A stretch of 55,667 bases of DNA from an uncultured Acidimicrobiaceae bacterium (GTDB lineage Bacteria; Actinomycetota; Acidimicrobiia; Acidimicrobiales; MedAcidi-G1). The stretch spans positions 1-55,667 of the forward strand of contig CAJWFS010000006.1 of the NCBI GenBank assembly GCA_913030665.1, in the 5' to 3' direction. Under the pieces are notes generated by a model. It saw nothing but the letters and a program-made list of their open reading frames with translations. It did no database searches and had not been told where the DNA came from. Positions 9,632 to 47,525 of this stretch are shown here, one piece after another (within the stretch, counting starts at the first letter, position 1; each line of letters starts with the position of its first letter). Position numbers and translations under genes: made by a program.

Positions 9632-9879
9632 TGATCATTGTTCCTTGTCCAAACTGTGGTCCCCGGAACTCTGGCGACCTTCAGAACTGCGGAGAGAACA
9701 TCTCTCGCCCCGACCCCTCGACGGCCTCACTGGTCGAGTGGCGTGAATACCTCTACATGCGGGAGAACCCCGCAGGCTGGGTCACCGAGACCTGGTACTG
9801 CCGGGGCGGATGCCGCCGTTACTTCACCATCCAGCGCAACACCGTGACCAACGAGATCCGTGGTCAGGAGGCGTCATGA
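9631..9879 (+). CDS. soxD: Sarcosine oxidase delta subunit
   Basis: An 82-aa subunit of heterotetrameric sarcosine oxidase, the usual size. It has the zinc-binding pattern: C6-x2-C9 in VPCPNCGPRN and C57-x3-C61 in WYCRGGCRRYF. WREYLYMRENPAGW is the family core. It supports assembly of the SoxB/SoxA complex and is not itself catalytic. ATG 9631 overlaps the last base of the soxB stop, and its own TGA overlaps the soxA ATG in an ATGA arrangement, so the three are translationally coupled. Confidence 0.95.
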   Translation: MIIVPCPNCGPRNSGDLQNCGENISRPDPSTASLVEWREYLYMRENPAGWVTETWYCRGGCRRYFTIQRNTVTNEIRGQEAS

Positions 9880-12728
9880 GCAACCGACTCCCCGCCCAGC
9901 CGGGCGAAGTGATCGACAGGGCCACCAGCCTGTCCTTCACCTGGAACGGAAAGGCCGTAACCGCCTACGAGGGTGACACCATCGCCTCGGCGATCGCCGC
10001 CAACGGCGACGACGTGTTCTCCCGCAGCATGAAGTATCACCGTCGGCGCGGAATCATGACGGCGGATCACTGGGATCCGAACCTGTTCGTGCAGGTCGGT
10101 GACGAGCCGAACGTCCGGGCCGGCAGCCGCCGACTGGAGGCCGGGATGGTCGTCAGTTCCCAGAACGTGTGGCCGAGCCTCCGCTTCGACCTGGGTGCCG
10201 TCAACCAGCTGGTCGGCCGGTTCCTGTCGTCAGGCTTCTACTACAAGACGTTCATGCGTCCCGCGTTTCTTTGGCCGGTGTACCAGAAGGTCCTGCGTAA
10301 GTTCGCCCCGGGTGGCGAGATCCACTGGAAGACCAGCACTCACGGTGCCTACGACAAGAGGTACGTCCACCCGGACGTCCTCGTCGCCGGGGGCGGTCCT
10401 GCCGGCATGGGGGCGGCTTTGGCTGCCGCCAACGCCGGCGCCTCAGTCCTTCTAGTCGAGCAGTATGACGACCTGGGTGGTCACCTCCTATGGGGCGACG
10501 ACGACCAGCGGGCGAAGGCTGCCGAGTTGGCAGCCGCCTGCCGGGCACACGCCGGCATCGAGGTGCTCGTCGACTCCACGGTGACCGGTCGCTACGACCA
10601 CAATTGGGTTGCCATCATGCAGCGGAGCCACTCCATCGCCCCCGAGCGCCTCGTCAAGGCACGGGCCGGCGTGCTGGTCGTGGCCCCCGGACTGGTCGAG
10701 CGCCCGTACGTGTTCGCCGGCAACGACACCCCCGGCGTCATGCTCTCCGGAGCGGTTCGTCGACTCGTCAACATGTGGGCGGTCAGGCCCGGGACCAGGG
10801 CCGTGGTCCTGACAGCCAACGCCGATGGTGACGCCGCTGTGGCCGACCTGGAACGTATTGGCGTGGAGATCGTCGCCGTCATAGATGCTCGTAGGGGCGA
10901 GACCATCGTGTCGGTCGAGGGCGGTGGCCGCGTCTCGAAGGTCACGGCCAGCGACGGACGGACGTTAGATGCCGACCTGGTCGTGACGGCCACCGGATGG
11001 ACGGCTCCCACCTCCCTGCTGAACATGGGGGGCGACAGGCCCGTCTACGACGCAACGGCGGCCCGGTACTTCTCCAACTCGCTTCCAGCCAACATCCTGG
11101 CCACCGGTGGCATCACCGGCGATGGGTCCACCGCTGAGTTGACGGCGCACGGTCGTGCCACTGGCGAGCTGGCGGCCAACCGTGCGCTTCGACGCCGGCA
11201 CGACCGCGTGTCACAGACCGCCCGAGCTGCCACCCCCACATGGGAGAAGCCGGCCGAGCGGGTCGACAACCGGACGCCCCTGGCCCGTGCACCCCATCCG
11301 GAGTGCTACCGCAGCTCAACCCACGGCATGGTCGACCTCTCAGAGGACGTGTCCTCCAAGGACCTCATCCAGGCCTCCAAGGAGGGCTTCGACTCGATCG
11401 AGCTAATGAAGCGCTACACCACCGTGACCATGGGCCCGTCCCAGGGCAAGTTGGAGACGGTAAACGCCGCCTCCGTGCTGGCCGAGGCCAACGGCGTCAC
11501 CATGGCCGAGATCGGCACCACCGTGTGGCGCCCGCCCTATGCGCCCATCTCGCTGGGTGCTCTAGCCGGTCGCATCCACGAGCCTGTGCGTCGCTCCGCC
11601 CTCCAGGACTGGCACGACAGCCATGGCGCCGTTCCACTCCTGGCGGGCCAGTGGGTCCGCCCGGACCACTACGGCGACGCGATCCACGAGGCTGCCAACG
11701 TGCGGAACAACGTCGGCCTGATCGACGTCACCCCCCTCGGCAAGCTGGACCTTCGCGGCCCGGACGTCTCCAAGCTCCTGGAGTTGGTGTACGTCAACAA
11801 GTGGTCGAAGCTGGCCGTCGGCAGGGTGCGCTACGGCACGATGGTGGCCGAGGACGGCGTCGTCTCCGATGACGGCGTCACCGCACGCCTCAGCGAGGAC
11901 CACTGGCTCATGACCTGCACCTCATCGGGTGCCGGCGCGGTCTGGGAGATGCTCGAGGACTGGCTTCAGACGGCCCACCCCGAGTGGGACGTCCACGTCA
12001 CCGCCGTGACCGGCGGCCTCACCAGCATCAACGTTGCCGGCCCGAGTTGCCGAACACTCCTGGAGCGCATCGTGGAGGGCGTCGACCTTTCCGGCGATGC
12101 CTTCCCATACTTCAGCGTGCGCCGTGGCACGGTGGCCGGCGTTGCCGACTGCATCATCTGGCGGATCGGCTTCACCGGGGAGCTCTCCTACGAGCTGCAC
12201 GTCCCATCGGGTCACGCACTCCACGTCTGGGAGACCCTCCTCGAGAAGGGGGCGGACCTGGGATGTGCGCCGTTCGGTGTAGAGGCACAGCGGATCCTGC
12301 GTCTCGAGAAGGGCCACTACATCGTGGGCCAGGACACAGACGGGTTGAGCAAGGCCCCGACGGCCGGCCTGGGTGGCCTCGTGAAGCTGGACAAGCCCGA
12401 CACCATTGGCCTACCCGAGCTGAAGGCCGCCTACGAGAGGGACGACCTTCCCATCCTGGTTGGCCTTCAGACCGATGATCCGACGATCGTCCCGACAGAG
12501 GCCTCTCAGATCGTGGACGGAGACACTGCCACGATCATGGGCAGGATCACGTCCAGCCGGATGTCGCCGAACCTCGGAAGGTCGGTCTGCCTCGCACAGG
12601 TCCATCCCTCGCTGGCAGCCGCCGGCACATCGGTAACCGTGCTGCTCATAGACGGCAGGCGGGTCACCGCTACCGTCCAGGAGCACCACGCCCATCTGGA
12701 TCCGGAAGGAGCACGCCAGCGTGTCTGA
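9876..12728 (+). CDS. soxA: Sarcosine oxidase alpha subunit
   Basis: A 950-aa subunit, close to known SoxA length. The N-terminal 100 residues form a ferredoxin-like fold without cluster Cys (YEGDTIASAIAANG). A dinucleotide-binding domain follows with VLVAGGGPAGMGAALAAANAG near 170 and VVVTATGWTAPTSLL later. The C-terminal third is GcvT/aminomethyltransferase-like and binds folate (LRGPDVSKLLELVYVNK, IGFTGELSYELHVPSGHALH, RLEKGHYIVGQDTDG). It accepts the one-carbon unit from sarcosine as 5,10-methylene-tetrahydrofolate. ATG 9876 is set by the ATGA overlap with soxD; it also removes 22 upstream codons that lie inside soxD. Confidence 0.95.
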   Translation: MSNRLPAQPGEVIDRATSLSFTWNGKAVTAYEGDTIASAIAANGDDVFSRSMKYHRRRGIMTADHWDPNLFVQVGDEPNVRAGSRRLEAGMVVSSQNVWPSLRFDLGAVNQLVGRFLSSGFYYKTFMRPAFLWPVYQKVLRKFAPGGEIHWKTSTHGAYDKRYVHPDVLVAGGGPAGMGAALAAANAGASVLLVEQYDDLGGHLLWGDDDQRAKAAELAAACRAHAGIEVLVDSTVTGRYDHNWVAIMQRSHSIAPERLVKARAGVLVVAPGLVERPYVFAGNDTPGVMLSGAVRRLVNMWAVRPGTRAVVLTANADGDAAVADLERIGVEIVAVIDARRGETIVSVEGGGRVSKVTASDGRTLDADLVVTATGWTAPTSLLNMGGDRPVYDATAARYFSNSLPANILATGGITGDGSTAELTAHGRATGELAANRALRRRHDRVSQTARAATPTWEKPAERVDNRTPLARAPHPECYRSSTHGMVDLSEDVSSKDLIQASKEGFDSIELMKRYTTVTMGPSQGKLETVNAASVLAEANGVTMAEIGTTVWRPPYAPISLGALAGRIHEPVRRSALQDWHDSHGAVPLLAGQWVRPDHYGDAIHEAANVRNNVGLIDVTPLGKLDLRGPDVSKLLELVYVNKWSKLAVGRVRYGTMVAEDGVVSDDGVTARLSEDHWLMTCTSSGAGAVWEMLEDWLQTAHPEWDVHVTAVTGGLTSINVAGPSCRTLLERIVEGVDLSGDAFPYFSVRRGTVAGVADCIIWRIGFTGELSYELHVPSGHALHVWETLLEKGADLGCAPFGVEAQRILRLEKGHYIVGQDTDGLSKAPTAGLGGLVKLDKPDTIGLPELKAAYERDDLPILVGLQTDDPTIVPTEASQIVDGDTATIMGRITSSRMSPNLGRSVCLAQVHPSLAAAGTSVTVLLIDGRRVTATVQEHHAHLDPEGARQRV

Positions 12729-13302
12729 GATCACCTTCAAGAGCCCGGTGGACGTCGGCCCGCTCACCTCCCCCGACGGGAGCGTGACGGTCGCCGACGC
12801 CGCATCCACGACCAAGGTCCAGGTCCGGGCAGGTGCCGGTACGGCTGCCGCAGCGGCCCTTGACGTGTCCTACGGCAGCAGCCGGCGTCGGGCCGACGAC
12901 GCCCTGGTGTGCGGTACCAGACCCGACGAGTGGACCATCTACGGCACTCCAGGACAGGCGGCTGCTATCTCCGCCACGGTTCCCACCGACGGCTTCGTGA
13001 CCGTCATCGACATCACCCATGGTCGGGCCATGCTGCGGATCAGCGGATCCAATGCCTCCGCTTCGCTGAACAAGATCTGCAACCTGGACCTGGGCGAAGA
13101 GCTCACCCCGAACGGTGCTGTCTTCTCGGCATCGGTCGGCAACGTGGGTTGCGACCTCGTTCGCGACGACCAAAACGGCCAGACGTCGTTCCTGATCGCC
13201 TGCGAGCGGTCATTCGGCAAGTTCCTTTTCATCGCCGTAGCTGACGCCTGTACCGAGTTCGGCGTGCAGATCCCGGCAGGCTGGGAACTGCACGGGCACT
13301 AG
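12721..13302 (+). CDS. soxG: Sarcosine oxidase gamma subunit
   Basis: A 193-aa protein with the SoxG/GcvT-like small-subunit features: GTRPDEWTIYGTPGQAAAI (compare the usual LGPDEWLL block), VIDITHGRAMLRISGSNAS and SLNKICNLDL. It packs against SoxA in the tetrameric enzyme. The GTG start at 12721 overlaps the end of soxA by 8 bp. It closes the Rieske-soxBDAG operon. The inserted DLVRDDQNGQTSFLIACERSF segment corresponds to the family's final beta strands. Confidence 0.88.
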   Translation: MSEITFKSPVDVGPLTSPDGSVTVADAASTTKVQVRAGAGTAAAAALDVSYGSSRRRADDALVCGTRPDEWTIYGTPGQAAAISATVPTDGFVTVIDITHGRAMLRISGSNASASLNKICNLDLGEELTPNGAVFSASVGNVGCDLVRDDQNGQTSFLIACERSFGKFLFIAVADACTEFGVQIPAGWELHGH

Positions 13303-13310: not shown

Positions 13311-13324
13311 GGATCATCTGATCC
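13311..13324. repeat. Short perfect inverted repeat after soxG
   Basis: GGATCATCTGATCC, 8 nt past the soxG stop, folds as GGATC/GATCC around ATCT; ATCAG/CTGAT is an alternative overlapping fold. There is no T-run. It may be a weak end-of-operon hairpin; function not established. Confidence 0.3.
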
Positions 13325-13384
13325 GCTGCCTCGGCGTCGTACGGCGACAGGTCCGTAGTCGAGGTGCCCTAGGGTGCGCCGGCG

Positions 13385-14788
13385 ATGGACCTCGCCGGTT
13401 TCCCCGCCACCGAACAGAAGGCCCTGCTGGCCTCCGGCCGGGCATCCTGTCGCGAGTTGCTGGCCGCCTGCAGGACCCGGGCAGGGCTGACCGAACCGGT
13501 GGTGAACGCGATCCCCACCGTCGACTGGGAAGCTGCTGAGGCGCTGGCCGGCCGCCTGGACGACGACACGATGCTGATGGAGGGTGCCCCACTGAGGGGC
13601 CTCGTCACCGCCCACAAGGACCTTTTCGACACGGCCGGAATGCGAACGACCTACGGGTCGCCCGTCTTCGCCGACCATGTGCCGGCTGCCGATGCTCCCC
13701 TTGTCGCCCACCTCCGCCGGTGTGGGCTCGTTTCCGTCGGCAAGACCAACACGCCGGAGTTCGGGAAGGGCTCCCACACCTTCAATCCGGTGCACGGCCT
13801 GACCCGCAACCCGTGGAATCCTCACCTGAGCGCCGGGGGTTCCAGCGGCGGAGCCGCCGTGGCGCTGGCTTGTGGGTCGGTATCGGTTGCCTGCGGTTCC
13901 GACCTGGGTGGGTCGCTACGCAATCCGGGCTCCTTCAACGGCGTGGTCGGCTTTCGTCCCACCTCCGGCTCCATATCCCATGACGTGGTGCAGGACCCCA
14001 GGATCCGAATGCCCATGTCGGGCCCGATGGGACGCACGGTGGCAGACATGGCCGTACTACTGGGCGCCATGACTGACGTCGAGGTGTCCGCCACCCCTGT
14101 CGCCGGAAAACCCCGCGTGGCTTTCTCCCCCGACCTCGGAGACCTCCCTCTGGACCCCGAGGTGCGTTCGGCCACCCAGCGGGCAGCCGATGTCCTGGCC
14201 GACGCCGGTTGGGACATCGTGGAGGCGTACCCCGACCTATCCGGTGCCGACCTGTGCTTCGAGGACCTGCGCGGCCTCTCCATGGCGCTCACCTCAGCCG
14301 ACCTCGCCGACGACGAGCGGGTGAAGGCCACGGCCCGCTACGAGATCGGCCTCGGACTGGCGCTGGGTGCCGACCGGCTCAGCGAGGCTGCGGCCGCCGA
14401 GGATCGCCTGCGGGACAACTGGGATCGATTCTTCGCCGTCGGCCGATTCGACATGTTCCTCAGCGCCACCAGCCAGGTCCCGCCCTTCCCCGTCGGCCTG
14501 GAGTGGATCTCCGAGATCGACGGCGTGCGGCTGGACCACTACACGCACTGGATGCGTTCCTGCTCCCGGATAACCGTGCCGGGTGGACCATCCATGTCGC
14601 TGCCGGCCGGGTTCACGGCCAACGGCCTCCCGATCGGAATCCAGCTCTCCGGGCCGAAGGGTCACGACCACTCCCTGATCGCCCTGGCCGCCGCCGCAGA
14701 GGAGGTGTTCGGTCCGTGCCCGCCCCCCGACGTGGGCGCACTTGCAGTGCTGGATCTGTCCAGCCTCCCGCCCGGGCCCCTCGGTTGA
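13385..14788 (+). CDS. Amidase-signature family hydrolase
   Basis: A 467-aa serine amidase. The Ser-cisSer-Lys triad is visible as Lys78 (VTAHKDLF), cis-Ser at about 154 (SAGGSSGGAAVAL) and nucleophile Ser177 (GSDLGGSLRNPGSF). Family members hydrolyse amides of carboxylic acids, including carnitine amide, or act in Glu-tRNA amidotransfer. The substrate here is unknown. It follows the sox operon after 82 bp, on the same strand, and precedes a betainyl-CoA-type thioesterase. A quaternary-amine amide substrate is therefore an attractive but unproven idea. No gatB or gatC lies nearby, which argues against GatA. Confidence 0.85.
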   Translation: MDLAGFPATEQKALLASGRASCRELLAACRTRAGLTEPVVNAIPTVDWEAAEALAGRLDDDTMLMEGAPLRGLVTAHKDLFDTAGMRTTYGSPVFADHVPAADAPLVAHLRRCGLVSVGKTNTPEFGKGSHTFNPVHGLTRNPWNPHLSAGGSSGGAAVALACGSVSVACGSDLGGSLRNPGSFNGVVGFRPTSGSISHDVVQDPRIRMPMSGPMGRTVADMAVLLGAMTDVEVSATPVAGKPRVAFSPDLGDLPLDPEVRSATQRAADVLADAGWDIVEAYPDLSGADLCFEDLRGLSMALTSADLADDERVKATARYEIGLGLALGADRLSEAAAAEDRLRDNWDRFFAVGRFDMFLSATSQVPPFPVGLEWISEIDGVRLDHYTHWMRSCSRITVPGGPSMSLPAGFTANGLPIGIQLSGPKGHDHSLIALAAAAEEVFGPCPPPDVGALAVLDLSSLPPGPLG

Positions 14789-14819
14789 CCCCCGTGTGTC
14801 CCATGACCCCGGGCGATGA

Positions 14820-14849
14820 TTGCCGCTGGCCACAGACGGGGCATAGATT
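14820..14849 (+). promoter_or_regulatory. Possible sigma70-type promoter for thioesterase-MFS pair
   Basis: TTGCCG (14820-14825) and TAGATT (14844-14849) are separated by 18 bp; each matches four of six consensus positions. The predicted start point near 14856 would lie just before a perfect 15-nt inverted repeat and about 90 nt ahead of the thioesterase. This is pattern-based and weak on its own. Confidence 0.3.
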
Positions 14850-14861
14850 GCGCGCATCAAG

Positions 14862-14876
14862 ACCACCTCTGGTGGT
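14862..14876. repeat. Perfect inverted repeat ACCACC-TCT-GGTGGT
   Basis: A 6-bp perfect dyad with a 3-nt centre lies in the 154-bp gap before the thioesterase gene, directly after the candidate promoter. It could be an operator for a small dimeric repressor or a 5'-UTR hairpin. No regulator gene adjoins it, so its partner is unknown. Confidence 0.4.
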
Positions 14877-14942
14877 TCCACCCCACCGCCCCCGCCTCTC
14901 CGGATGCGGCGACGGGACGGCCCGTCTGTGGAGGTCAGGTCG

Positions 14943-15428
14943 ATGGCAGCGTCACCCCAGCCGATCCGGACCTGGCACACGGTCGTTCCACCGGCGTGGA
15001 TCGACTACAACGGTCACCTGAACGAGGGGTACTACGGGGTGGCGTTCGGCGATGCCTCTGATGCCCTTCTGGACCACCTCGGATTTGACGGGGACTACCG
15101 AGAGGCGCACGGGACCTTCTACACGGTCGAGACCCGCATCCGCTTCCTCCGGGAGGTACACGAGGGTTCCGAGATCCACGCAGCGACCCTGCTTCTGGGT
15201 GCTGACGAGAAGCGCCTGCACGTCCATCACGACCTGCTCGCCGGCGACTCTCCGGATCCGGTGGCCACCCAGGAGGCGATGATGCTCCACGTGGCCCGGG
15301 GTCCAGACGGCCCCGGTGTGGCACCCATGTCCGAACCCCTGCTGGGACGGGCGCTGGCCCTCGCGGCGCTTCACGCCACGGTCAGGGTGGGCGACCACGT
15401 GGGGAGTGGTGTGAGGACCCTGCGGTGA
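14943..15428 (+). CDS. Betainyl-CoA thioesterase-like (4HBT hotdog) protein
   Basis: A 161-aa single-hotdog thioesterase. WIDYNGHLNEGYYGVAFGDA (about 19-38) is the acyl-CoA thioesterase active-site block, and EKRLHVHHDL plus EAMMLHVARG follow the pattern I recall from CdhB-type thioesterases of carnitine degradation, which release betaine from betainyl-CoA. ATG 14943 is chosen because GGAGG (14930-14934) lies 8 nt upstream; ATG 14904 would add 13 residues. The stop overlaps the start of an MFS transporter gene (GTGA). Together with the Rieske/sox genes it fits a betaine-producing and betaine-consuming island. Other short-chain acyl-CoA substrates cannot be excluded. Confidence 0.75.
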   Translation: MAASPQPIRTWHTVVPPAWIDYNGHLNEGYYGVAFGDASDALLDHLGFDGDYREAHGTFYTVETRIRFLREVHEGSEIHAATLLLGADEKRLHVHHDLLAGDSPDPVATQEAMMLHVARGPDGPGVAPMSEPLLGRALALAALHATVRVGDHVGSGVRTLR

Positions 15429-36349: not shown

Positions 36350-37372
36350 TCAGTCCAGCTGGTCGGCGCGACGCCGACCTTTGAGTTGCTGGTGGGCGGC
36401 CTTCGTACCGTCGTGCCAGGTACCGGTCCACCGATCTATTGGCATCTGGGTATTGCCGTAGTTGACCTCAAAATAGCGGTGGTGAAGTTGATGGAAGAGG
36501 TCCCCGGCCGGGGCCTCCCAGCGACCAATACGCACCCGGGCGAAGCCGGAGTGGGACGGGGCTGGACCGGGCCCCTCGTACATGGCGAACATCAGAATGA
36601 CCAGAGGGTGGACGGGAAGCACCCAGAAGACCAGGAATCCCGAGAAGTAGACGAGGTGCTCGAGGGGGTGCATGGAGATGCCAGTCCACGGCGTGGGGTT
36701 CGGGTTGCGGTGGTGCAGGGCGTGAACCCTCCGGTACACCGGCACCCAATGTATGAGCCGATGATTTGCCCAGAAGTGGGCCGTGGACACGAACACCACG
36801 CCCAAGGTGGCCATAAGGAGTACCACGACCGGGTTGGCGGCCCAGCCGGGCCGGGCCACCAAGCCGCTGGCGTAGGCCCAGTGGGTGAGTGCCTCGTAGA
36901 TCGAAAGGAAGGCCACCCCGCTGGTCATCGTCCAGAAGGCGTTGTCTCTGATCTGGCTGCCGAAGGTGAACTTCGACCCGGTGCCCGGCCACCGCGGGTT
37001 GAACTTGAAATCGTCGCCCTGGGCACGCCGAACGTACAGCCACCAGTGCAGTCCGCCGACAATCAGGCCGACGACCAGCAGGTTGCGGAACCAGATCCCC
37101 GCGATCCACCACGGTTGGAGGGTGGCCATGGTGGCCTCGCTGGGCAGGAACCACCGCCAGATCAGGATCGATAGGACCAGGTAGAAGAGGATCCACGGGT
37201 ACAGGATCATGCGGACCGCCCAGACCAGTGCGGCGAGCGGTCGAGGTGGCCAGGCGAACAAGGCCGGGACCTCGATGGGGACAGGCGGCTCGTAAGCGCC
37301 GTTGGCAACGCCCCGGTATCCATCTGCGGGCTGTTCGATTGGTGGATGCTCGGGCAATTGGTTCTCAGGCAT
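36350..37372 (-). CDS. Sterol desaturase/fatty acid hydroxylase-family membrane protein
   Basis: A 340-aa membrane di-iron enzyme. The His motifs are FWANHRLIHWVPVYRRVHALHHRN, SMHPLEHLVYFSG and FHQLHHRYFEVNYG, matching the H-x3-H, H-x2-HH and H-x2-HH set of the FA-hydroxylase superfamily. About five hydrophobic helices are visible (for example LYPWILFYLVLSILIWRWF). It probably hydroxylates or desaturates a sterol, carotenoid or fatty lipid at the membrane. ATG 37372 (MPENQLPEH) is chosen because the upstream frame overlaps glpK. It follows glpK by 17 bp on the same strand, so co-transcription is likely. Substrate unknown. Confidence 0.85.
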   Translation of the reverse strand: MPENQLPEHPPIEQPADGYRGVANGAYEPPVPIEVPALFAWPPRPLAALVWAVRMILYPWILFYLVLSILIWRWFLPSEATMATLQPWWIAGIWFRNLLVVGLIVGGLHWWLYVRRAQGDDFKFNPRWPGTGSKFTFGSQIRDNAFWTMTSGVAFLSIYEALTHWAYASGLVARPGWAANPVVVLLMATLGVVFVSTAHFWANHRLIHWVPVYRRVHALHHRNPNPTPWTGISMHPLEHLVYFSGFLVFWVLPVHPLVILMFAMYEGPGPAPSHSGFARVRIGRWEAPAGDLFHQLHHRYFEVNYGNTQMPIDRWTGTWHDGTKAAHQQLKGRRRADQLD

Positions 37373-37389
37373 CGGCTGCGCTCCGGGGC

Positions 37390-38877
37390 TCAGACCCAAT
37401 CGAGGGTGCGTTCGACGGCCTGACTCCAGCGGGCAGTAAGCCTGGAACGTTCCTCGGGACCCATACTCGGCCGCCAGCGCCATCCCTCACACCAGTTGGC
37501 CCGAAGGTCGGACAGGTCTGACCACACGCCCTCGGCCAACCCTGCGGCGTACGCCGCACCCAACGCCGTGGTCTCGGCCACCACGGGCCGCACCACGTCG
37601 ACGCCCAACACGTCGGCCTGGAACTGCATCAACAGATCGTTGACAACCATTCCACCGTCGACCCGTAGCCCGGTCAGGACCACCCCGCTGTCGGCTCGCA
37701 TGGCGTCAATCAGATCCCGAGTCTGAAACGCGGTTGCCTCCAACGCGGCGCGAGCCAGGTGCCCCCGGTTGGCGAACTGAGTCAGACCGACGACCGCCCC
37801 TCTCGCGTCGGAGCGCCAGTGGGGGGCGAACAGGCCGGCGAATGCGGGCACGAGGTACACGTCACCGTTGTCGTCGACGCTGCGGGCCAAGGCCTCGACC
37901 TCGGCCGCATCGTCGATGATGCCAAGCTCGTCACGTAGCCACTGGACTGTGGCGCCGGCCATGGCGACCGATCCTTCCAGGGCATAGGTGGGAGGTTGGC
38001 CGGCGACTTGGACGGCCACAGTGGTGAGCATGCCGTGGGTAGAGGGGACGGCCTCAGCGCCTGTGTGCATCAGGAGGAAGCATCCGGTGCCGTAGGTGTT
38101 CTTGGCCTCGCCCGCTGCGTGGCAGCCTTGGCCGAACAGCGCCGCCTGCTGGTCGCCGAGGATGCTCGAGATGGGCACACCGTCCAGCGGGCCGATACCT
38201 GCGCCCAGCCGACCGATGGACGGCAGGATCTCAGGAAGCATGGCCGGCGGCACCCCCATGGCCGCCACCAGTTCTGGGATCCAGTCGAGCGTGGCCAGGT
38301 CCATCATCAGGGTCCGTGACGCGTTGGTGACGTCGGTGGCATGCCGCCCACCATCAGGTCCGCCAGTCAGGTTCCAAAGGAGCCACGAATCGATGGTGCC
38401 GAGTAGCGCCCGACCGCTCTCACCTCGGGTCCGAAGACCTTCTACGTGGTCGAGCAGCCACGTGGCCTTGGGTCCGCTGAAGTAGGTGGACAACGGCAAT
38501 CCGGTGGCGGCTCGAAAACGGTCCGGGTCGCCATTGCCCAACTGTTCAACGATGCCGTCGGTCCGTGTGTCCTGCCAGACAATGGCGTGGTGCAGCGGTT
38601 GACCCGTTGTTGGATCCCAGACCACGAGGGTCTCACGCTGATTGGTGATGCCGACGGCCGCGAGGTCGCGAGCTGACAGCTCCGCCGAGGCCAGTGCCTC
38701 GTTGATCACCGTCCAGGTGTTGGTCAGTATCTCGGCTGCGTCATGCTCGACCCAGCCGGGCTTGGGAAGATGCTGGGCGTGGGCGCGCTGGGCACTGGCC
38801 ACCACGCCACCGGTCTCATCAAAGACCATGAAACGGGTACTGCTGGTGCCCTGGTCGACGGCACCGACGAGAGGCAT
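37390..38877 (-). CDS. glpK: Glycerol kinase
   Basis: A 495-aa FGGY-family kinase that phosphorylates glycerol to sn-glycerol-3-phosphate. [17 protein letters not shown] is the N-terminal ATP loop, [13 protein letters not shown] and [14 protein letters not shown] are diagnostic for GlpK, and [18 protein letters not shown] is the catalytic-domain block. Length matches E. coli GlpK. It lies 3 bp downstream of the PPOX gene and 17 bp upstream of the desaturase-like gene. No glpF is nearby; its product is the substrate of GlpD encoded at 17.6-19.1 kb. Confidence 0.96.
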
Positions 38878-40590: not shown

Positions 40591-41544
40591 CTACGGGTCG
40601 ATGGTGCCCAGATGAGTGTCTGCATCCGAGGGCGCCTCGTCCGGCCAGTTGGTGCGCCAGACCTCGGTCGTTACGGCCCCGACGGGAACCGACCTGGGCT
40701 CGAAGCCCGGTAGCGGCTCCAGCAGCGGCTTCACGACCACCAGGTGGTTGGGCACCACGAAGAACGGGGCGCTGTAACGCTCAACTCCCGGCGGGTTACT
40801 GACCCGGTGCGGAGTGGACACCAGCCGCCCTCCCGACCAGACCTCCAGCAGGTCGCCCACGTTGACCAGGAGAGCGTCGGATGGACAGACGGCCTCCAAC
40901 CACTCTCCGTCCCGGGTCCGCACCTCGAGCCCACCCACCGGGTCGGGATCCAAGATGGTCACCACGGTGATGTCCTTGTGGGCGTGGAACCCTGGCGATG
41001 GGTCATCAGCCTGGTGTGGCAAATAGTGCAGCAGTGTGGTGTTGGTCAACGGCGCATCCATGGCCCTCGCCAACACGTCGGCGTCCATGCCGACGGCGGC
41101 GGCAAGTGCATCGATGATCCGGCCGGACAGTGTGTCCATGGCCACCCACCAGGAGGCCACCACCCCCGGCATATCGGGGAGCTCGTCGGGCCACCGGTTG
41201 GACCCGTACAGCTCGCATTCGCCGCGCACCGGATGGCCTAACGGGCACTCCCAGTGCATCTTGTAGCCCTCGTAGGCGTCAACGAGGGCCCCTTTATCCC
41301 GGTTAGGAGTGAAATATCCGATAGGGATGAAGCCGCGGTAGTCGTCGCGGGTGATCGTCAGCCGATCTTTGGTCTCATCATCGATGGTGAATAGATCGAC
41401 CAACAGCCGCCGCATGGCTGCAAGGTCCTGCAGCGGCACACCGTGCCCGCGGACAGCCACGAAGCCGATGTCCGAAAGTGCGGTGACGATCCCGGCGTCG
41501 TCGTCGAGGTCGACGACCGGCACACCCAGTGGTCGCGTGCTCAC
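40591..41544 (-). CDS. Isopenicillin-N-synthase-type Fe(II)/2OG oxygenase
   Basis: A 317-aa DOXC-like oxygenase. VPVVDLDDDAGIVTALSDIG is the typical IPNS N-terminal start, GFVAVRGHGVP the second block, and the core carries FHAHKDITVVTIL (His-x-Asp), a distal His in STPHRVSN and RYSAPFF (Arg-x-Ser). Such enzymes oxidise small molecules using 2-oxoglutarate; some are involved in ethylene, antibiotic or purine pathways. It starts at GTG 41544, overlapping the M24 stop, and is the last gene of the six-gene operon. Its proximity suggests it acts on an intermediate there. Confidence 0.88.
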   Translation of the reverse strand: MSTRPLGVPVVDLDDDAGIVTALSDIGFVAVRGHGVPLQDLAAMRRLLVDLFTIDDETKDRLTITRDDYRGFIPIGYFTPNRDKGALVDAYEGYKMHWECPLGHPVRGECELYGSNRWPDELPDMPGVVASWWVAMDTLSGRIIDALAAAVGMDADVLARAMDAPLTNTTLLHYLPHQADDPSPGFHAHKDITVVTILDPDPVGGLEVRTRDGEWLEAVCPSDALLVNVGDLLEVWSGGRLVSTPHRVSNPPGVERYSAPFFVVPNHLVVVKPLLEPLPGFEPRSVPVGAVTTEVWRTNWPDEAPSDADTHLGTIDP

Positions 41545-42731
41545 CCGAGGATGGGCAGTTCGGCTGGCGCCCGGCGGGACAGTAACTCCGGTCCGTCGGC
41601 ACGCACCACCAGGTTCTCCTCGTGAACCATCATCCGACCTGGCGCCCAGGTCAGCGACGGCTCGAGGGTCATGACCATCCCCTCGACCAGCATCGTGCCG
41701 TCGTCAGCGGTGTTGGAGGGCCACTCTGTGACCTGCATGCCTAGTCCGTGGCCGAGACGCCCCACCGAGTTGCCCAACGAACCACTCGCCGGCCCTCCGC
41801 CATCAAGGACCTCAGCCATGGCGCGCCACAGGTCGCTGGTCGTCGCTCCGGGGAGCACCGCTGTCAGCCCGGCCTCGGTGGCGGCCCAGACCGTCTCGTA
41901 GGCCCGCCGGGCGTCGTCGTCGGCCTGACCGAAGGCCACGTAGCGGTCGAAGTCGCTGGAGTAGCCGTCGAAAATCGAACCGGTGTCGAACATGAGCAGG
42001 TCGCCCGTCCGGATCTCGCGGTCGGAAGGCTGCCTGATGATGTCATCGAAACCCGGTCCTGAGGCCCCCACCAGATACGGGACATCGTCGGCTCCGCGCC
42101 GAAGCAGGTCGATGCGAAACGCTGCGAACGCCTCACGTTCCGTCATGCCCGTGGACAGCAGGTCACCCAGTCCCTCGAAAGCGCCTGAGACCACATCGCA
42201 GATGTGTGCCACCTTCTGAACTTCTCGTGGAGACTTGACCATTCGCAGGGAGCGAACGACGTCCGTGGCATCCACGAAGACCGTTGGAGCGATGCGGTCC
42301 CGCAGGGCGTCCAGATCTGACAGCGGCATCCGGACGTGGGTCTCATGACCCATCGGGAGGCCGATCCGTCCCGACGGATCAACTAGTCGGTCGGCAACCT
42401 CCGCCAGGGTGTCAGCCAGCAGCTCCAGGCCGTCGTCGACCGGGCGGGGCGCCGGCCACGTACGCACGTCGTCGATCCATGTGGCGGTCATGGAAGAGGC
42501 GCCGATAGCAGGGATCACAGCGATCGGCTTGCCATCGACTGGAAGCACCACGAACCACGGGCGCGTCGGGCTCTGCCAGAACGGTGTGTGGAAGCCGGTC
42601 AGGTAGCGCACCTCCGGTTCGGTGCAGACCAGCATGGCGTCGAGGCGCCGTTCCGCCAGCATCTGCTGTGCCCGCTTCGTCCGTGACTCAAATTCTTCTA
42701 CGGGAAAACCCCGGTCGGGTACGACGCTCAC
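41541..42731 (-). CDS. M24B metallohydrolase (Xaa-Pro peptidase/ectoine hydrolase-like)
   Basis: A 396-aa pita-bread-fold enzyme of creatinase/aminopeptidase P type. Metal ligands appear intact: MFDTGSIF (Asp), SSDFDRYV (Asp), GHGLGMQVTEWPS (His), MTLEPSLTW (Glu) and HEENLVV (Glu). Ending in SRRAPAELPIL recalls the DoeA/EutD-type ectoine hydrolase clade, whose members have about 399 aa; intact ligands argue against the metal-free creatinase. GTG 42731 overlaps the EutA-like stop by 4 bp. Neighbours (EutA-like, PhyH-like, demethylase) support an amidine or cyclic-amide hydrolase role, without proving it. Confidence 0.85.
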   Translation of the reverse strand: MSVVPDRGFPVEEFESRTKRAQQMLAERRLDAMLVCTEPEVRYLTGFHTPFWQSPTRPWFVVLPVDGKPIAVIPAIGASSMTATWIDDVRTWPAPRPVDDGLELLADTLAEVADRLVDPSGRIGLPMGHETHVRMPLSDLDALRDRIAPTVFVDATDVVRSLRMVKSPREVQKVAHICDVVSGAFEGLGDLLSTGMTEREAFAAFRIDLLRRGADDVPYLVGASGPGFDDIIRQPSDREIRTGDLLMFDTGSIFDGYSSDFDRYVAFGQADDDARRAYETVWAATEAGLTAVLPGATTSDLWRAMAEVLDGGGPASGSLGNSVGRLGHGLGMQVTEWPSNTADDGTMLVEGMVMTLEPSLTWAPGRMMVHEENLVVRADGPELLSRRAPAELPILG

Positions 42732-43525
42732 CTTGGATCCATCCCCAGTCCGAGGGTGAAGAGGCGCCCCATTCCGTTGATCGCATCGTCGATGCCAGCG
42801 AGGCGCAGTAGGTGCCAACCGAAGGCGAGGTTGCTGGATACCACCGCCACGCCCAACTCGGCCTCCAGTGCTCCGGCGATGCCGTAGGCCCGCAGGCTGG
42901 TGCACGACACGAACACAGCATCAACCCGGCGGTCGGGGCTGGCATCAGCAGACGCGACCAACCCGCGCACTGCGTCGGCCACCGAGGCCTCGGTGATGCG
43001 GGCCACGTTGGCATCGCTCTCCTCAAGGAATGATCCGGCGGCCACTACCTCCAGCCCACGGCTGGTCAACAGATCCACGATGCCGCCGGTGACCTCTGCG
43101 TTGTAGGGCGTCACCACGGCGACTCGAACGGCCCCGAGGGCGGCCATGGCGGCCAGAACGGCGGTGATCGGGTTGGTGTTGGGTACATCGGGGTGGGCTC
43201 GCCGGATTGCCGCGGATACCCGGTCCTCACCTATCAGTGTGGCGGCCGACGTGCAGCCGTAACCAATCACGTCGAAGTCCATGAGCCCGGGTAGCAGCGC
43301 CGCCGCCTCAGGGATCCGGACCTCCATGGCTCGCAGAGTTTCGGCGGTGACTCGATCCTCCATAGGGATGCGGGTGGCGAAGGCCGCCACCCCGTCGGGC
43401 CACAGTGACGAGAGCTCGGCCTCGACGGTCTGGTCGTTCTCGAGCACCACGATCCCGATCCGGGCGCGCTGGCCGAATCCGTCGTCAGTGACAAACGGCA
43501 ACTGCTGCAGGTCGATCGACGTCAC
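42728..43525 (-). CDS. EutA/maleate-isomerase-type Asp/Glu racemase-superfamily protein
   Basis: A 265-aa protein. Two catalytic Cys are visible as in the Asp/Glu racemase/maleate cis-trans isomerase superfamily: VIGYGCTSAATLIG and VFVSCTSLRAYG. ITAVLAAMAALGAVRVAVV with TPYNAEVTGGIVD is typical of the EutA/arylmalonate-decarboxylase branch. EutA-like genes accompany ectoine hydrolase (EutD/DoeA) in ectoine degradation clusters. GTG 43525 overlaps the PhyH stop by 4 bp, and its stop overlaps the M24 start. The substrate could be a dicarboxylic intermediate; the exact reaction is open. Confidence 0.82.
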   Translation of the reverse strand: MTSIDLQQLPFVTDDGFGQRARIGIVVLENDQTVEAELSSLWPDGVAAFATRIPMEDRVTAETLRAMEVRIPEAAALLPGLMDFDVIGYGCTSAATLIGEDRVSAAIRRAHPDVPNTNPITAVLAAMAALGAVRVAVVTPYNAEVTGGIVDLLTSRGLEVVAAGSFLEESDANVARITEASVADAVRGLVASADASPDRRVDAVFVSCTSLRAYGIAGALEAELGVAVVSSNLAFGWHLLRLAGIDDAINGMGRLFTLGLGMDPR

Positions 43526-44403
43526 ACCGGGTCCCCCTGGGCCTGCTGATCGAAGAACGACGCGGTGGTCGGCTTCTCTCCGAGGGCCATCTCGTAGGAC
43601 GATGCCCTGACCCGACCGGTGGCCACACCCCGAACCACCTCGCCCTCGTAGATGCTCGGCAGGTGGTTCGGGTGCAGGATCCGGCTGTCCTCGGACCGGT
43701 AGCTGAAGATGGCCAGCGTCCGAGGGTGCTCGGCCAGATTGGCTGCAGAACCGTGCACGAGGCGGGTGTGCATCAGGCATGCGCTGCCGGCCGGACCGAA
43801 GCAGGCCACCGGCTCGCCCAGGCCAGCCAGGTCCCTGTCAGCGATAGTGCCGGTGAATACGCCGTCCTGCCAGTGGTCGAAGATGGGGCCCCGATGGGTG
43901 CCCGGCACGACCTCCAACGGCCCGTTGTTCAGCGTCACGTCGTCGACGAACAGCAGCGCTGCCAGCATGTCGTCGTTGCTGTGCGCCTCGTAGGCGAAGT
44001 CCTGGTGGAACCGCACGGTGGTGCCGACCCCCGGCTGCTTACAGTTGGTCTTGACGTTGTTCACCACCAGGTTGGGGCCCACTAACTGGGCCGCCGCGTC
44101 GACCAGCAGACTGTCACGCATGATCCGCAGGTGCACGTCGCACACCTCCTGAGGTGAAGCCACCCGGCGCAGAGCCGGATACTCGGCGCTGTGGCCGGGC
44201 TGGACGTCGAACCGGCCCCGTCCATCCATGGTCGTTCCCCACGGGCCGTCGTGGTCCCGGCTCTCCTCGACCCAGCCCGCGACCGCACCCCGCAGGGCGG
44301 CAAGCTGCCCGGTCGACACGGCCCCATCCATGAGGACGTAGCCATCCCGCCAGAAGGCCGTCACCTGGGTCTCGGTCAGGGGCCCTGCCGGCAGGTGTTC
44401 CAT
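43522..44403 (-). CDS. Phytanoyl-CoA dioxygenase (PhyH) family oxygenase
   Basis: A 293-aa Fe(II)/2OG oxygenase. Iron ligands are H-x-D in VRFHQDFAYEAHS and the distal His in RLVHGSAANL; SYRSEDSRIL supplies a possible 2OG-binding Arg. EVVPGTHRGPIFDHW is the PhyH-type loop. Compared with ectoine hydroxylase EctD, which carries F-H-S-D-F-E-T-W-H, this enzyme reads F-H-Q-D-F-A-Y-E-A-H, so it is not a standard EctD. It lies 48 bp after the 337-aa PhyH-like gene and overlaps the EutA-like gene by 4 bp, so it is part of the six-gene operon. Substrate unknown. Confidence 0.87.
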   Translation of the reverse strand: MEHLPAGPLTETQVTAFWRDGYVLMDGAVSTGQLAALRGAVAGWVEESRDHDGPWGTTMDGRGRFDVQPGHSAEYPALRRVASPQEVCDVHLRIMRDSLLVDAAAQLVGPNLVVNNVKTNCKQPGVGTTVRFHQDFAYEAHSNDDMLAALLFVDDVTLNNGPLEVVPGTHRGPIFDHWQDGVFTGTIADRDLAGLGEPVACFGPAGSACLMHTRLVHGSAANLAEHPRTLAIFSYRSEDSRILHPNHLPSIYEGEVVRGVATGRVRASSYEMALGEKPTTASFFDQQAQGDPV

Positions 44404-44451
44404 GGCGCGGATCCTTTCACGCCGGCTGGCCTCAGACAGCCCCGTCGGTGG

Positions 44452-45465
44452 TTACGTCTCGTAGTGCTCTATCGGCGGCGGCTCGGTCCGCATGTCCCGA
44501 ATGGCCCGCTCCACGTCGCAGACAGCCTCCTCGAGGCGATCGGCGGCCTCGGCCGCGCCCAGTCCGAAGGGCAGGTCGTCCACGAGTCCCTGTAGGCGGC
44601 CGACACCGCGCCAGGCGACGTGCCGGGCCCACTCGGTCGCCAGCACGGCAGGATCATCTACTCCTCTGAGGTCCCGCGATCGGGACTGGTCGTCACGGCT
44701 CCGGTCAAGGGCCACATAGCCGTTGACCATGGTGATCCTCTCGGCCGGAGCATCCAACGGAGCGCCACGGTGCACGACCATGTTCCCGTGCAGTGCGATC
44801 GCCCACCCGGGGCCGCCGAATTCAGGAGCGAGCACCCGCTCCGGCGGAGGCCGCTCTCCGGTTGCGGCGAGGGCAGCGGCATCCGCCTTCGTGCCGAGGA
44901 ACACCTCGAATCGGCCACCGGGCAGGCCCGCCGGGTCGCTGACCATCATGACGAAGTCCAGCGGCAGGGTGTCGTGGTGCCACTTGTCAACGGCCTCCCC
45001 CACCTCGGTGGGCTCGAAGTTCAGGTGCCCGAGGTGGAGGGGCATGGTGTGGGGTGCCACGTCGGTGCCGTAGATCCCGGCCATCACGTCGGTCACCTCC
45101 GGACTCAGGCACAGGTCCCGTAGCCATCGGGACCGGTAGCAACCTCCGCGGACGGTGTGCTGGATCCGATCCCCGGCTCGGGCGGCGAACGGTCGGAGCC
45201 GGCGGGCCACGTCCAGGAGCACGCCGGCACCCACATCGGACAGGATCCGGAACGGCTCGGAGAACGCCGCCGCCGTGGCCGTCGGGCAGATCTCGTCTTC
45301 TGAGTAGCCCAACTCGGCAAGCGTCGTCACCGCTGCCGGCGGCCGGATCTCCAGGTGTGCAGCCGGGTCGAAGGTCGGCTCGTCGTCCAGCCATTCATAG
45401 CCAGGCGGCTGGACCGCAGGAAACGCAATGGCGCTGGCCATGGCCGGTGGCTCCGATCTGCTCAC
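44452..45465 (-). CDS. Divergent PhyH-like/2OG-oxygenase-type protein
   Basis: A 337-aa protein that is only distantly like PhyH. A plausible iron site is VDKWHHDTLPLDFVMMVSD (H-x-D) and a distal His in HGNMVVHRGAPLD, followed by APAERITMVNGY with an Arg. GGRFEVFLGT and GWAIALHGN are cupin-like strands. I cannot name the family with confidence; a jelly-roll oxygenase is the best reading. GTG 45465 overlaps the demethylase stop by 4 bp, and the PhyH gene follows after 48 bp. Adjacent oxygenases imply a two-step oxidation or two paralogous activities. Confidence 0.6.
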   Translation of the reverse strand: MSRSEPPAMASAIAFPAVQPPGYEWLDDEPTFDPAAHLEIRPPAAVTTLAELGYSEDEICPTATAAAFSEPFRILSDVGAGVLLDVARRLRPFAARAGDRIQHTVRGGCYRSRWLRDLCLSPEVTDVMAGIYGTDVAPHTMPLHLGHLNFEPTEVGEAVDKWHHDTLPLDFVMMVSDPAGLPGGRFEVFLGTKADAAALAATGERPPPERVLAPEFGGPGWAIALHGNMVVHRGAPLDAPAERITMVNGYVALDRSRDDQSRSRDLRGVDDPAVLATEWARHVAWRGVGRLQGLVDDLPFGLGAAEAADRLEEAVCDVERAIRDMRTEPPPIEHYET

Positions 45466-47525
45466 AGGTGCTGCAGAAGTCTGCGGGCATCGAGCAGGGC
45501 CGATGCTACGTCGCGAGAGGCAACGCAGTCCCCCACGCGATACAGCAGGTGGCCACCTTCCTCAATATCGGCGAACGCCGGTTGGGGGTGGCCCCCGACC
45601 AGCGCTTCGAGGTCGACCACACCGCCGTTTGCCGACCCGTCGCACATGGTCAGGAACAGGCCCTCGTCCGGTACAACGCCGTGCTCGGTGACCACCGCAT
45701 CGACCTCATGGGCCACCTTGTCGCCGGTGTACTCGTTGCGCAGCACGGCCCGTAGCGCCGAAGAGTCTCCCTCTACGGGTTCGACCCGGACCAGCCGATG
45801 GTCAGAGATCATTACCACCCCTGAGCCGTAGAGCATTCGGAGGTAGGCAGGCCCAAGCGGGGTGGCCAGGTCAAGGCCGACGTGCCGGTCCGGGGTGACC
45901 AGTTCCAGACCGGACACCCGGCGATCGAGAGACTCGGTGGCCAACAACTCCACCACGGCCAAACCCCGCTCGTCCCCGTGATCGTCATAGACCAGAACCC
46001 GTCCCTCGGGTCGGACCTGCCCACTGAGGACATCCCATGACGTGGCCACCAGTTCAGCGCCTGACTCCAGATAGGTCACCTCAGGACTACCCCCGGTAGC
46101 CACGACGACCACATCCGGCGCTTCGACCAGTACAGCATCGGCGTCAACCGGCGTGCCGAGCCTCACGTCGACCCCGACGAGCTCCACCTCGGAGATCAGC
46201 CAGTCAACGAGGCCGGCCACCTCCCGCTGGCGCTCGGCGGCCCGAGCCATGAGCGCCAACTGTCCACCGAGACGATCCTGGGCCTCGAACAGGACCACGT
46301 CGTGGCCCCGTTCGGCACACGTCCGGGCCGCCTCCAGGCCAGCCGGTCCACCACCCACCACCACGACTCGCCGACGCGAAGCCGTCGAACGCACCACCAA
46401 TTGAGGAACTGTTGCCTCACGCCCGGTCGCCGGATTCTGGATACATACCGAGTCCAGGCCCAAGTGCAGTCGGTTGATGCACAGCGATGCGCCCACACAG
46501 GTGCGGATGCGGTCGGCCTCCCCCCGTTCCAACTTGGCCACAAGGTGGGGATCGGCGAAGTGGGCCCGGGTCATCCCCACCAAGTCCACGGCACCGGACT
46601 CCACAGCGTGACGGGCGGTAGCCAGGTCGGCGATTCGAGTGGCGTGCAGGATGGGTACGTCGACCACCCCGCGGACAGCGGCGGCCACAGGTAGGTACGG
46701 CGCCAGCGGCGTTCCGGCTGGCGGTATGGCCTTCGAAAGCCCATCCTCGGTGGCCAGCGCTGGTCCGGCGACATTTAGGAAGTCCAGCAGGCCTGAGGTG
46801 GCGAGAGTCACGGCTATCTCGCAGCAATCCTCCTCATCAAGGCCGCCCGGCTGATCCTCAGTGCCCAACATCCTCAGGCCGACCAACAAACGGCCATCAG
46901 CCGCTGTCTGGACTGCTTCGAGAACTTCCATGGTTAATCGAAGTCGGTTGCCTAAAGACCCTCCGTACCCGTCGGTACGAAAGTTCACCAGCGGTGACCA
47001 GAACTGATCCAGCAGGTGGCTGGTGGCCAGCAACTCGATCCCGTCTAGGCCTGCATCAACCGCTCGACGGGTGGCGGTGGAGAAGTCTGCTACCACCCTT
47101 CGCAGGTCCGAAAGCTCTGCCTGCTTAGGCCAGAAGCGGTGCATGGGCTCGCGAACCGGCGATGGGGCGATTGTGGGCAGCCAGTCACCGTCGTTGGAGA
47201 CGTTACGCCTCCCCATGTGGGTGAGCTGGCACATGATGGCTGCACCATGGCCGTGAATCCGGTGGACCATTTCGGCCAGGGGACTGACCACAGCGTCGCT
47301 GCCGAAGTTGAGCTGGCCCCACAATGAGGCCGAATCGCGCGAGACATTGGACGACCCACCGATCATGGTCAAGCCAAGGCCGCCCGCCGCTTTCTCTTCG
47401 TGGTAACGGACGTAACGGTCGCTCGGTGTGCCATCGACGTTGTAGCCGGGCGAGTGGCTACTGGAAAATATCCGATTACGGAGCTGCAACCCAGCCAGAT
47501 CGAATGGCTCTAAGAGCGGGTCCAT
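45462..47525 (-). CDS. DgcA/StcD-type FMN/FAD oxidoreductase (N-demethylase)
   Basis: A 687-aa two-part flavoprotein. The N-terminal Old Yellow Enzyme barrel carries LLEPFDLAGLQLRNRIFSSS, QLTHMGRRNVSNDGDW, then DQFWSPLVNFRTDGYGGSLG. The C-terminal FAD/NAD domain begins RRVVVVGGGPAGLEAARTCA. Length matches DgcA (dimethylglycine) and StcD (N-methylproline) demethylases, about 680 aa. The Fe-S motif is TCVGASLC followed at 11 residues by another Cys, so one of the four canonical Cys (C-x2-C-x3-C-x11-C) is Ala here. It heads the six-gene operon. Dimethylglycine, N-methylproline or similar N-methyl compound is the likely substrate, and DgcB-like partners are absent. Confidence 0.82.
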   Translation of the reverse strand: MDPLLEPFDLAGLQLRNRIFSSSHSPGYNVDGTPSDRYVRYHEEKAAGGLGLTMIGGSSNVSRDSASLWGQLNFGSDAVVSPLAEMVHRIHGHGAAIMCQLTHMGRRNVSNDGDWLPTIAPSPVREPMHRFWPKQAELSDLRRVVADFSTATRRAVDAGLDGIELLATSHLLDQFWSPLVNFRTDGYGGSLGNRLRLTMEVLEAVQTAADGRLLVGLRMLGTEDQPGGLDEEDCCEIAVTLATSGLLDFLNVAGPALATEDGLSKAIPPAGTPLAPYLPVAAAVRGVVDVPILHATRIADLATARHAVESGAVDLVGMTRAHFADPHLVAKLERGEADRIRTCVGASLCINRLHLGLDSVCIQNPATGREATVPQLVVRSTASRRRVVVVGGGPAGLEAARTCAERGHDVVLFEAQDRLGGQLALMARAAERQREVAGLVDWLISEVELVGVDVRLGTPVDADAVLVEAPDVVVVATGGSPEVTYLESGAELVATSWDVLSGQVRPEGRVLVYDDHGDERGLAVVELLATESLDRRVSGLELVTPDRHVGLDLATPLGPAYLRMLYGSGVVMISDHRLVRVEPVEGDSSALRAVLRNEYTGDKVAHEVDAVVTEHGVVPDEGLFLTMCDGSANGGVVDLEALVGGHPQPAFADIEEGGHLLYRVGDCVASRDVASALLDARRLLQHL

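Follow-up and report, generated by a model that had tools for sequence, protein, structure and literature searches.

The DNA analysed here, a stretch of 55,667 nucleotides (contig CAJWFS010000006.1 of the assembly GCA_913030665.1, hereafter the window) from an uncultured Acidimicrobiaceae bacterium, carries at positions 40591–47525 six consecutive minus-strand open reading frames (ORFs) that form a real and conserved gene set, probably catabolic in function. We estimate at about one half the probability that all six genes serve a single pathway for the catabolism of a small N-methylated solute derived from an amino acid, of betaine- or ectoine-like type. Within the set, genes 3, 4 and 5 are very probably members of a shared pathway. 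Support for belonging together is good for these three, fair for gene 1 and gene 6, and lowest for gene 2. The evidence consists of direct observations on gene structure, on the placement of the proteins in families and clades, on conserved metal and Fe ligand residues and on joint presence in related genomes. The six genes are:

Gene 1, 45462..47525, minus strand: OYE/TMADH-type flavoprotein, putative N-demethylase of the DgcA/HpbA superclade, in its own clade
Gene 2, 44452..45465, minus strand: divergent PhyH-fold protein (PhyHdiv), putative Fe(II)/2-oxoglutarate (2OG) oxygenase
Gene 3, 43522..44403, minus strand: PhyH-family putative Fe(II)/2OG oxygenase, distantly EctD/proline-hydroxylase-like
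Gene 4, 42728..43525, minus strand: EutA/maleate-isomerase/arylmalonate-decarboxylase-type protein
Gene 5, 41541..42731, minus strand, GTG start at 42731: putative hydrolase of the M24 (creatinase/prolidase) family, in a clade apart (M24-X)
Gene 6, 40591..41544, minus strand: IPNS/ethylene-forming-enzyme-type 2OG oxygenase, variably present

The ORF listing of the window contains each of these genes, on the strand and in the order given by a first-pass annotation made from the sequence alone. The tight packing described there also holds, with 4-bp overlaps at four junctions (OYE flavoprotein/PhyH-like, PhyH/EutA-like, EutA-like/M24 and M24/IPNS-type) and one 48-bp gap (PhyH-like/PhyH) making one tight gene set, but the internal junctions number five and not six as was counted. 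Pfam assigns gene 1 to Oxidored_FMN and Pyr_redox_2, gene 3 to PhyH, gene 4 to Amdase/Asp_Glu_race, gene 5 to Creatinase_N and Peptidase_M24, and gene 6 to DIOX_N and 2OG-FeII_Oxy; for gene 2 neither Pfam nor NCBIfam gave a match at E 0.001. Scanning for promoters and terminators gave no signal exceeding that of shuffled sequences, and an Rfam scan of the window gave 0 matches at gathering score.

Distribution of the six families in related genomes

Co-occurrence was surveyed in 298 genomes of the order, belonging to 171 genera; as these are draft assemblies, genes are said to lie apart according to their contigs. Using cut-offs of E ≤ 1e-60 for M24-X and E ≤ 1e-40 for the EutA-like protein, both were recovered from an identical set of 29 genomes in 14 genera. 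PhyH is found in 28 of the 29, as well as in three other genomes with copies at 49–53%, and the single miss (G025) concerns a contig that starts within the apparent end of the PhyH gene. The M24/EutA-like/PhyH trio is contiguous in 20 of the 29 genomes, in all three possible orders (10, 8 and 2 genomes); elsewhere a pair is kept (two genomes), a contig end cuts the trio (G025), or all three genes lie apart and are yet present (six genomes). It is because of these last six genomes that we consider the trio very probably to be one pathway. Scattering of the genes, which the first-pass annotation had named as a sign against a common function, is thus accompanied by joint presence and argues for a shared pathway.

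The other three genes are more loosely associated. A demethylase of the window clade was counted where the flavoprotein match reached at least 57%, matches of 43–46% falling in the HpbA clade by tree; it was found in 14 genomes, of which 13 also have M24-X, and in all nine co-occurring genomes outside the genus the two genes are located on different contigs. Under a looser criterion (E ≤ 1e-100) 17 of 23 genomes with the flavoprotein also have M24-X, and the restriction to the window clade reduces the count of genomes with all six families from eight to six, in four genera. Gene 6 was detected in 18 genomes (15 with M24-X) and gene 2 in 33 (18 with M24-X). The co-occurrence of these families across relatives supports the first-pass annotation.

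At the level of single loci (numbered L, and overlapping in part with the genomes numbered G, so that the two counts are not additive), eight window-type loci are uncut inside the operon, L020, L022 and L075 having been dropped as cut and L019 beginning inside gene 1. Six of the eight hold all six genes (in L028, gene 1 and gene 2 are 1.2 kb apart), and the remaining two (L026 and L027) are without the IPNS-type gene. Within the genus, a search for gene 2 recovered it from 11 of 16 genomes; G001 is a genome without it.

The flavoprotein encoded by gene 1

The best references for gene 1 are the flavoprotein at the DgcA position of a betaine-type locus, L140 (47.9% identity), and an annotated HpbA (45.7%). 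The L140 locus comprises genes for a Rieske protein, a hybrid-cluster reductase, the flavoprotein, an Fe-S protein, an electron-transfer flavoprotein (ETF) and ProVW, and it is from these neighbours that we assume its flavoprotein to be DgcA. Gene 1 shares with DgcA and HpbA the domain layout, the cluster motif CVGAxxC, which is replaced by CxxC in FadH and TMADH, and the active-site stretch HL(I/L)xQFWSP. In a tree of 36 rows, rooted on FadH as a single outgroup on a very long branch, gene 1 lies inside a clade of 15 Acidimicrobiales rows (support 97/100), apart from an HpbA/StcD clade of 15 rows that itself includes 11 Acidimicrobiales proteins; the position of the DgcA branch is not settled by this tree. 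From its sequence, gene 1 is thus a putative demethylase of the DgcA/HpbA/StcD superclade, forming its own clade; HpbA, StcD and DgcA themselves are N-demethylases, with dimethylglycine (DgcA) or N-methylproline (HpbA/StcD) as substrate.

The initial assignment to a DgcA/StcD-type demethylase is accordingly upheld by the tree and by the CVGAxxC fingerprint, as is, within the limits of one outgroup, the separation from the 2,4-dienoyl-CoA reductase FadH. The narrower StcD assignment did not survive, and gene 1 is rejected as a member of the HpbA/StcD N-methylproline demethylases on account of the separate clades. Gene 1 also differs from the DgcAB, HpbA and StcD systems in the context of its own operon, and neither a DgcB nor an ETF gene is found among its scanned neighbours.

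The EutA-like protein and the M24-X hydrolase

The best NCBIfam match of gene 4 is TIGR02990 (EutA), at 179.5 bits and below the equivalog cut-off of 318, and its identity with an annotated EutA is 42.7%. The translation contains two candidate catalytic cysteines, which presumably act in a two-cysteine mechanism.

In gene 5, residues D248, D259, H327, E356, E370 and E371 are invariant in 36 related sequences, and the five residues expected of Xaa-Pro peptidases (D, D, H, E, E), which we take to be the metal ligands, are retained. On the other hand, M24-X has QVTEWP where the structure 1wy2 has EVHEWP, with T334 invariant in the 36 sequences, and the histidine of Xaa-Pro peptidases that we assume to act in the second shell after the GHG motif (VHEWP) is absent. 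The first-pass annotation had recognized an ectoine-hydrolase character in this protein, which the comparisons do not confirm. Indeed, M24-X is only 23.6% identical to the annotated DoeA of a named eut locus, it keeps metal ligands most of which that DoeA lacks, and it scores 48–67 bits against cut-offs of 575–613 (47.8 of 613 for TIGR02993 and 66.4–66.8 of 575 for NF038259). The M24-X clade moreover holds against DoeA and DddP with a support of 96/99, in a tree with long reference branches in which the placement of DoeA is unsure. Identity, ligands, score and tree together rule out gene 5 as ectoine hydrolase DoeA/EutD. As a DddP-type dimethylsulfoniopropionate lyase it is likewise rejected (18.6 bits against a cut-off of 600), and its score is also far under the PepQ cut-off of NCBIfam. 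A stretch FWxSPTRxWF is carried by M24-X.

Seven Proteobacterial relatives of M24-X (49–56% identity) are annotated with a diaminopropionate ammonia-lyase in their vicinity in six cases, an Lrp/AsnC regulator in five and an EutA-like protein in three; amino-acid/Ehu ABC or BCCT transporters are located near several of them. Annotation also places an M20-type, amidohydrolase or Zn-hydrolase gene near six of the seven (all seven when "Zn-dependent hydrolase" is counted), the M20 assignment being checked by Pfam in L085 only. The loci L084–L089 are Proteobacterial plasmid clusters in which M24-X stands with a pyridoxal-phosphate (PLP) enzyme gene annotated as diaminopropionate ammonia-lyase, some with an amidohydrolase and an EutA-like gene, and they are look-alikes of ectoine clusters.

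The oxygenases encoded by genes 2, 3 and 6

The structure model of gene 2 has a mean pLDDT (predicted local distance difference test) of 92.4, and its nearest folds in the PDB are the leucine hydroxylase GriE, the BesD/HalD halogenases, the proline hydroxylase H11 and EctD, with TM-scores by query of 0.38–0.49. Four residues, H163, D165, H232 and R243, arranged as H163xD165...H232...R243, are unchanged across 47 homologues. The closest named relatives of gene 2 come from Acidimicrobiales/Acidimicrobiia and are almost all metagenome-assembled. Gene 3 was rejected as ectoine hydroxylase EctD (55.2 bits against a cut-off of 336.5); its nearest solved structures, EctD (49 bits), proline hydroxylase (48) and leucine hydroxylase (46), score near-equally and do not discriminate, and its structure model was poor (mean pLDDT 44) and set aside. 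For gene 6 the nearest PDB match is the ethylene/succinate-forming enzyme.

Outside the window-type loci, PhyHdiv was examined in 50 loci, some of them short. Within a distance of 4 kb, six of these have an MttB gene, five a DddP or DddP-like gene and two, both already counted, a DMGDH-type gene; DddP and MttB-type quaternary amine methyltransferases are found beside PhyHdiv in such loci and not in the window operon. In the six loci, which belong to two lineages, the MttB gene follows 10–486 bp downstream of PhyHdiv, and about 0.65 such loci would be expected from a background of 156 MttB copies in 29 genomes, picked from PhyHdiv loci and not the same set as the 50. An MttB fragment that stands beside PhyHdiv in divergent orientation in L072 was left out of the count. 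In L063 (7483–9919, Granulosicoccaceae) PhyHdiv is preceded, at no more than 80 bp, by a gene whose score of 873 bits (cut-off 600) identifies it as DddP. The Alphaproteobacterial loci L076, L077 and L081 (5.8–12.8 kb) have in a row a DddP-like M24 gene, a carnitine-dehydrogenase-like gene, an untyped gene, a hydroxyacid-dehydrogenase-type gene and PhyHdiv, with a GbcA-like Rieske gene nearby on the opposite strand.

Demethylation genes near these families

About 25 kb from the operon, a plus-strand block at 7064–16798, ending with an MFS transporter gene, encodes further candidate demethylation enzymes, with the Sox subunit genes in the order B, D, A, G. The features of the window outside the operon that concern the argument are:

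7064..8338, plus strand: alpha subunit of a Rieske oxygenase, matching best in NCBIfam to the glycine betaine monooxygenase GbcA (172 of 670 bits)
8342..9631, plus strand: SoxB-type sarcosine oxidase subunit
9631..9879, plus strand: SoxD-type subunit (longest ORF from 9385, start placed by inference at the ATG at 9631)
9876..12728, plus strand: SoxA-type subunit (longest ORF from 9810, start placed by inference at the ATG at 9876)
12721..13302, plus strand: SoxG-type subunit
13385..14788, plus strand: amidase, in the same block as the Sox genes
14904..15428, plus strand: thioesterase, with a match to the C-terminal region of the model for carnitine 3-dehydrogenase
36350..37483, minus strand: fatty-acid-hydroxylase superfamily protein

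With respect to the known SoxBDAG and GbcA-type Rieske systems, these genes share the window with the operon and lie outside of it, and all the Rieske and Sox proteins are below the NCBIfam cut-offs, the Sox subunits reaching 492 of 529.45, 833.8 of 1164, 88.3 of 116.5 and 61.7 of 143.95 bits. The SoxBDAG-amidase-thioesterase-MFS block recurs 5.1–10.4 kb from the M24 gene in five relatives from two other genera (G019, G021, G024, G025 and G029), accompanied by the Rieske gene in G019 and G024 only; the partial stretches examined in G022, G001 and G012 do not show the Sox block. In three window-type loci (L024, L028 and L119) a Rieske gene stands at most about 2 kb after gene 6. Further demethylase types appear close to these families: in G019 an MttB-domain gene directly precedes the trio, in an ORF where a truncated MTTB match is fused with an enoyl-CoA-hydratase match, and an MttB-family gene adjoins the window-clade demethylase in three of the ten such loci outside the genus (G178, G249 and G304). 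The N-methyl theme proposed at the outset is supported by these MttB-, DMGDH- and Sox-type demethylases.

Proposed pathway and alternative readings

In the pathway that we propose, the Fe(II)/2OG oxygenases PhyH and PhyHdiv, and in some genomes the IPNS/EFE-type enzyme, would oxidise the substrate, the DgcA-like flavoprotein would strip one N-methyl group as formaldehyde, and the remaining methyl groups would be left to the enzymes of the Rieske and SoxBDAG genes, which lie on the same contig. The protein of EutA type may invert or isomerise a carbon centre, and M24-X, with its two-metal site, may hydrolyse an amide- or amidine-type bond. We infer that the reactions act on one molecule, as well as their order and the chemical class of this molecule; the class, an N-methylated amino-acid-derived solute, is suggested rather than proven by the recurrence of DgcA-like, MttB-like and Sox/DMGDH-like demethylase types around the same families. 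More tentatively, and in our view doubtfully, ectoine-type chemistry (EutA-like inversion with metal-dependent M24 hydrolysis) and betaine-type stepwise N-demethylation might meet on one molecule, with PhyHdiv as a new family of free-amino-acid/onium oxygenases common to DddP-, carnitine-dehydrogenase- and MttB-type loci; the substrate would then be an N-methylated amino-acid solute bearing an amide or amidine, new for marine Acidimicrobiia.

Several observations weigh against a single six-gene pathway. PhyHdiv occurs without M24-X in 15 of its 33 genomes, and in 39 of the 50 other PhyHdiv loci (some short) a gene of MttB, DddP or DMGDH type is absent from the surrounding 4 kb. The window-clade demethylase is present in only 13 and gene 6 in only 15 of the 29 M24-X genomes, figures in which, as in the other genome counts, absences may be misses since few candidates were scored per genome. 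No DgcB homologue was matched in the bacterium's own genome (1.94 Mb, 88% complete) by a search run without positive control, and transporter genes are absent from the six genes and their immediate neighbours. Finally, a control gene encoding a pyridoxamine-oxidase-like protein (38881–39600) was found in 20 of 20 M24-X genomes against 11 of 20 others, in a test on 40 genomes rather than the full 298; M24-X genomes thus have a background of common genes, as sharing of one accessory gene tends to go with sharing of others. Because this control gene is also commoner with M24-X, and because the Fisher tests of co-occurrence ignore phylogeny, the identity of the genome sets and the joint presence after scattering carry more weight than the p-values.

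Among the alternatives, a divergent ectoine/5-hydroxyectoine route, in which (hydroxy)ectoine is the substrate of PhyH and of the EutA-like protein, M24 opens the ring and the demethylase is incidental, appears rather unlikely. The window resembles eutABCDE/doeAB clusters in the adjacency of an EutA-type protein and an M24-family hydrolase, with EutA as the best NCBIfam match of gene 4, and the M20-type, PALP, Lrp/AsnC and Ehu-/BCCT-type content around the Proteobacterial relatives recalls the eut clusters treated in parts of PMC5924519 and PMC13188858. Passages of the latter (2026) describe putative ectoine clusters, which the paper itself calls tentative, in both Actinomycetota and Bacillota; they contain additional eutD homologues, and the Bacillota examples are without eutE. 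If M24-X is among these eutD homologues, a part of the gene set has already been pointed at. A description of the six-gene set as such was not found in the open-licence literature of PubMed Central. One further locus is of ectoine-like composition: in L188 of G304, genes resembling DoeB (50%), M24 (24%) and PhyH (34%) lie near an HpbA-clade flavoprotein. Against the ectoine route, genes 4, 5 and 3 remain far under the EutA, DoeA and EctD cut-offs, M24-X retains ligands that the annotated DoeA mostly lacks, no family match to EutB, EutC or DoeB/EutE is found among the six genes or the scanned flanking genes, the operon differs from eut clusters by its extra oxygenases and its demethylase, and the demethylase and the Sox block are left unaccounted for.

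Catabolism of glycine betaine only, in which the Rieske, DgcA-like and SoxBDAG enzymes take the three methyl groups and the other five genes merely share the operon, is improbable. It draws on the similarity of the flavoprotein to the DgcA-position gene of L140 and on the Rieske and SoxBDAG genes within the same window, whereas the Rieske protein attains only 172 of 670 bits for GbcA and 13 of the 14 genomes with the window-clade demethylase have M24-X. Since this co-occurrence persists on different contigs, the demethylase is more than a mere neighbour of M24-X. Still less probable is a set that makes or tailors a small natural product, as might be read from three 2OG oxygenases of types used in tailoring and from GriE and the BesD/HalD halogenases among the fold neighbours of PhyHdiv: no assembly-line, ligase or carrier family occurs among the six or the scanned flanking genes, the demethylase and Sox-type genes are of catabolic families, and the Proteobacterial relatives often lie beside uptake systems.

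In a test on 80 genomes, the fatty-acid-hydroxylase protein had homologues (E ≤ 1e-30) in 15 of 28 genomes with M24-X and in 0 of 52 others, and it is possibly a seventh member of the system. A route that breaks down a methylated head group bound to glyceryl or lipid (e.g. of a betaine lipid), and that includes this protein and glycerol kinase/GlpD, is nevertheless very improbable. In its favour are this distribution, the GlpK gene adjoining the fatty-acid-hydroxylase gene in the window, a GlpD gene 3–9 kb from M24 in G021, G025 and G029 and, in several genomes, a PLP gene of Cys/Met type close to the trio (checked by Pfam in L083 and L120). Against it, GlpK and GlpD are common genes, the hydroxylase was not found in 13 of the 28 M24-X genomes, nothing ties it to a head group and no lipase family is among the six.

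The pathway for an N-methylated solute remains our best explanation, and the interpretation of the first-pass annotation is partly supported: judged by family models and trees, parts of the set resemble betaine demethylation and ectoine catabolism, and the proteins fall outside EutA, DoeA, EctD, DddP and StcD by the tests that define these. Uncultured Acidimicrobiia are widespread in the sea and their diet is poorly known. The trio, found in 29 of 298 genomes and lying apart in six, marks a definite metabolic ability, and the operon supplies enzyme families and marker genes (M24-X with FWxSPTRxWF, and PhyHdiv) that can be used with ocean data. If the N-methyl reading is true, an added route would exist in the turnover of methylated nitrogen osmolytes.

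Flanking genes and the wider region

On its upstream side the operon is separated by 62 bp from cysC, which we take, by look and outside the family scan, to be followed by cysN and cysD. On the other side, 199 bp past gene 6, are located genes for PhzF, the pyridoxamine-oxidase-like protein, glycerol kinase and the fatty-acid-hydroxylase protein. The window also contains a LysR gene (6053–7045, minus strand; 229 of 325 bits for the choline-sulfate utilisation regulator), a choline-sulfatase/arylsulfatase-like gene (28555–29991, plus strand; choline-sulfatase score 120 of 433 bits) and three genes for TauD-type dioxygenases (1713–2675 and 21795–22700, minus strand; 26994–27887, plus strand); the choline-sulfatase-like gene and the TauD-type dioxygenases point to a wider sulfur/osmolyte region. 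In the genus, cysDNC lies upstream. A sulfotransferase-like gene is found between cysC and the flavoprotein gene in L026 (3064–3813) and L028 (4259–5014), and another precedes gene 2 in L049 (9228–9989), the only locus in which PF19798 was tested.

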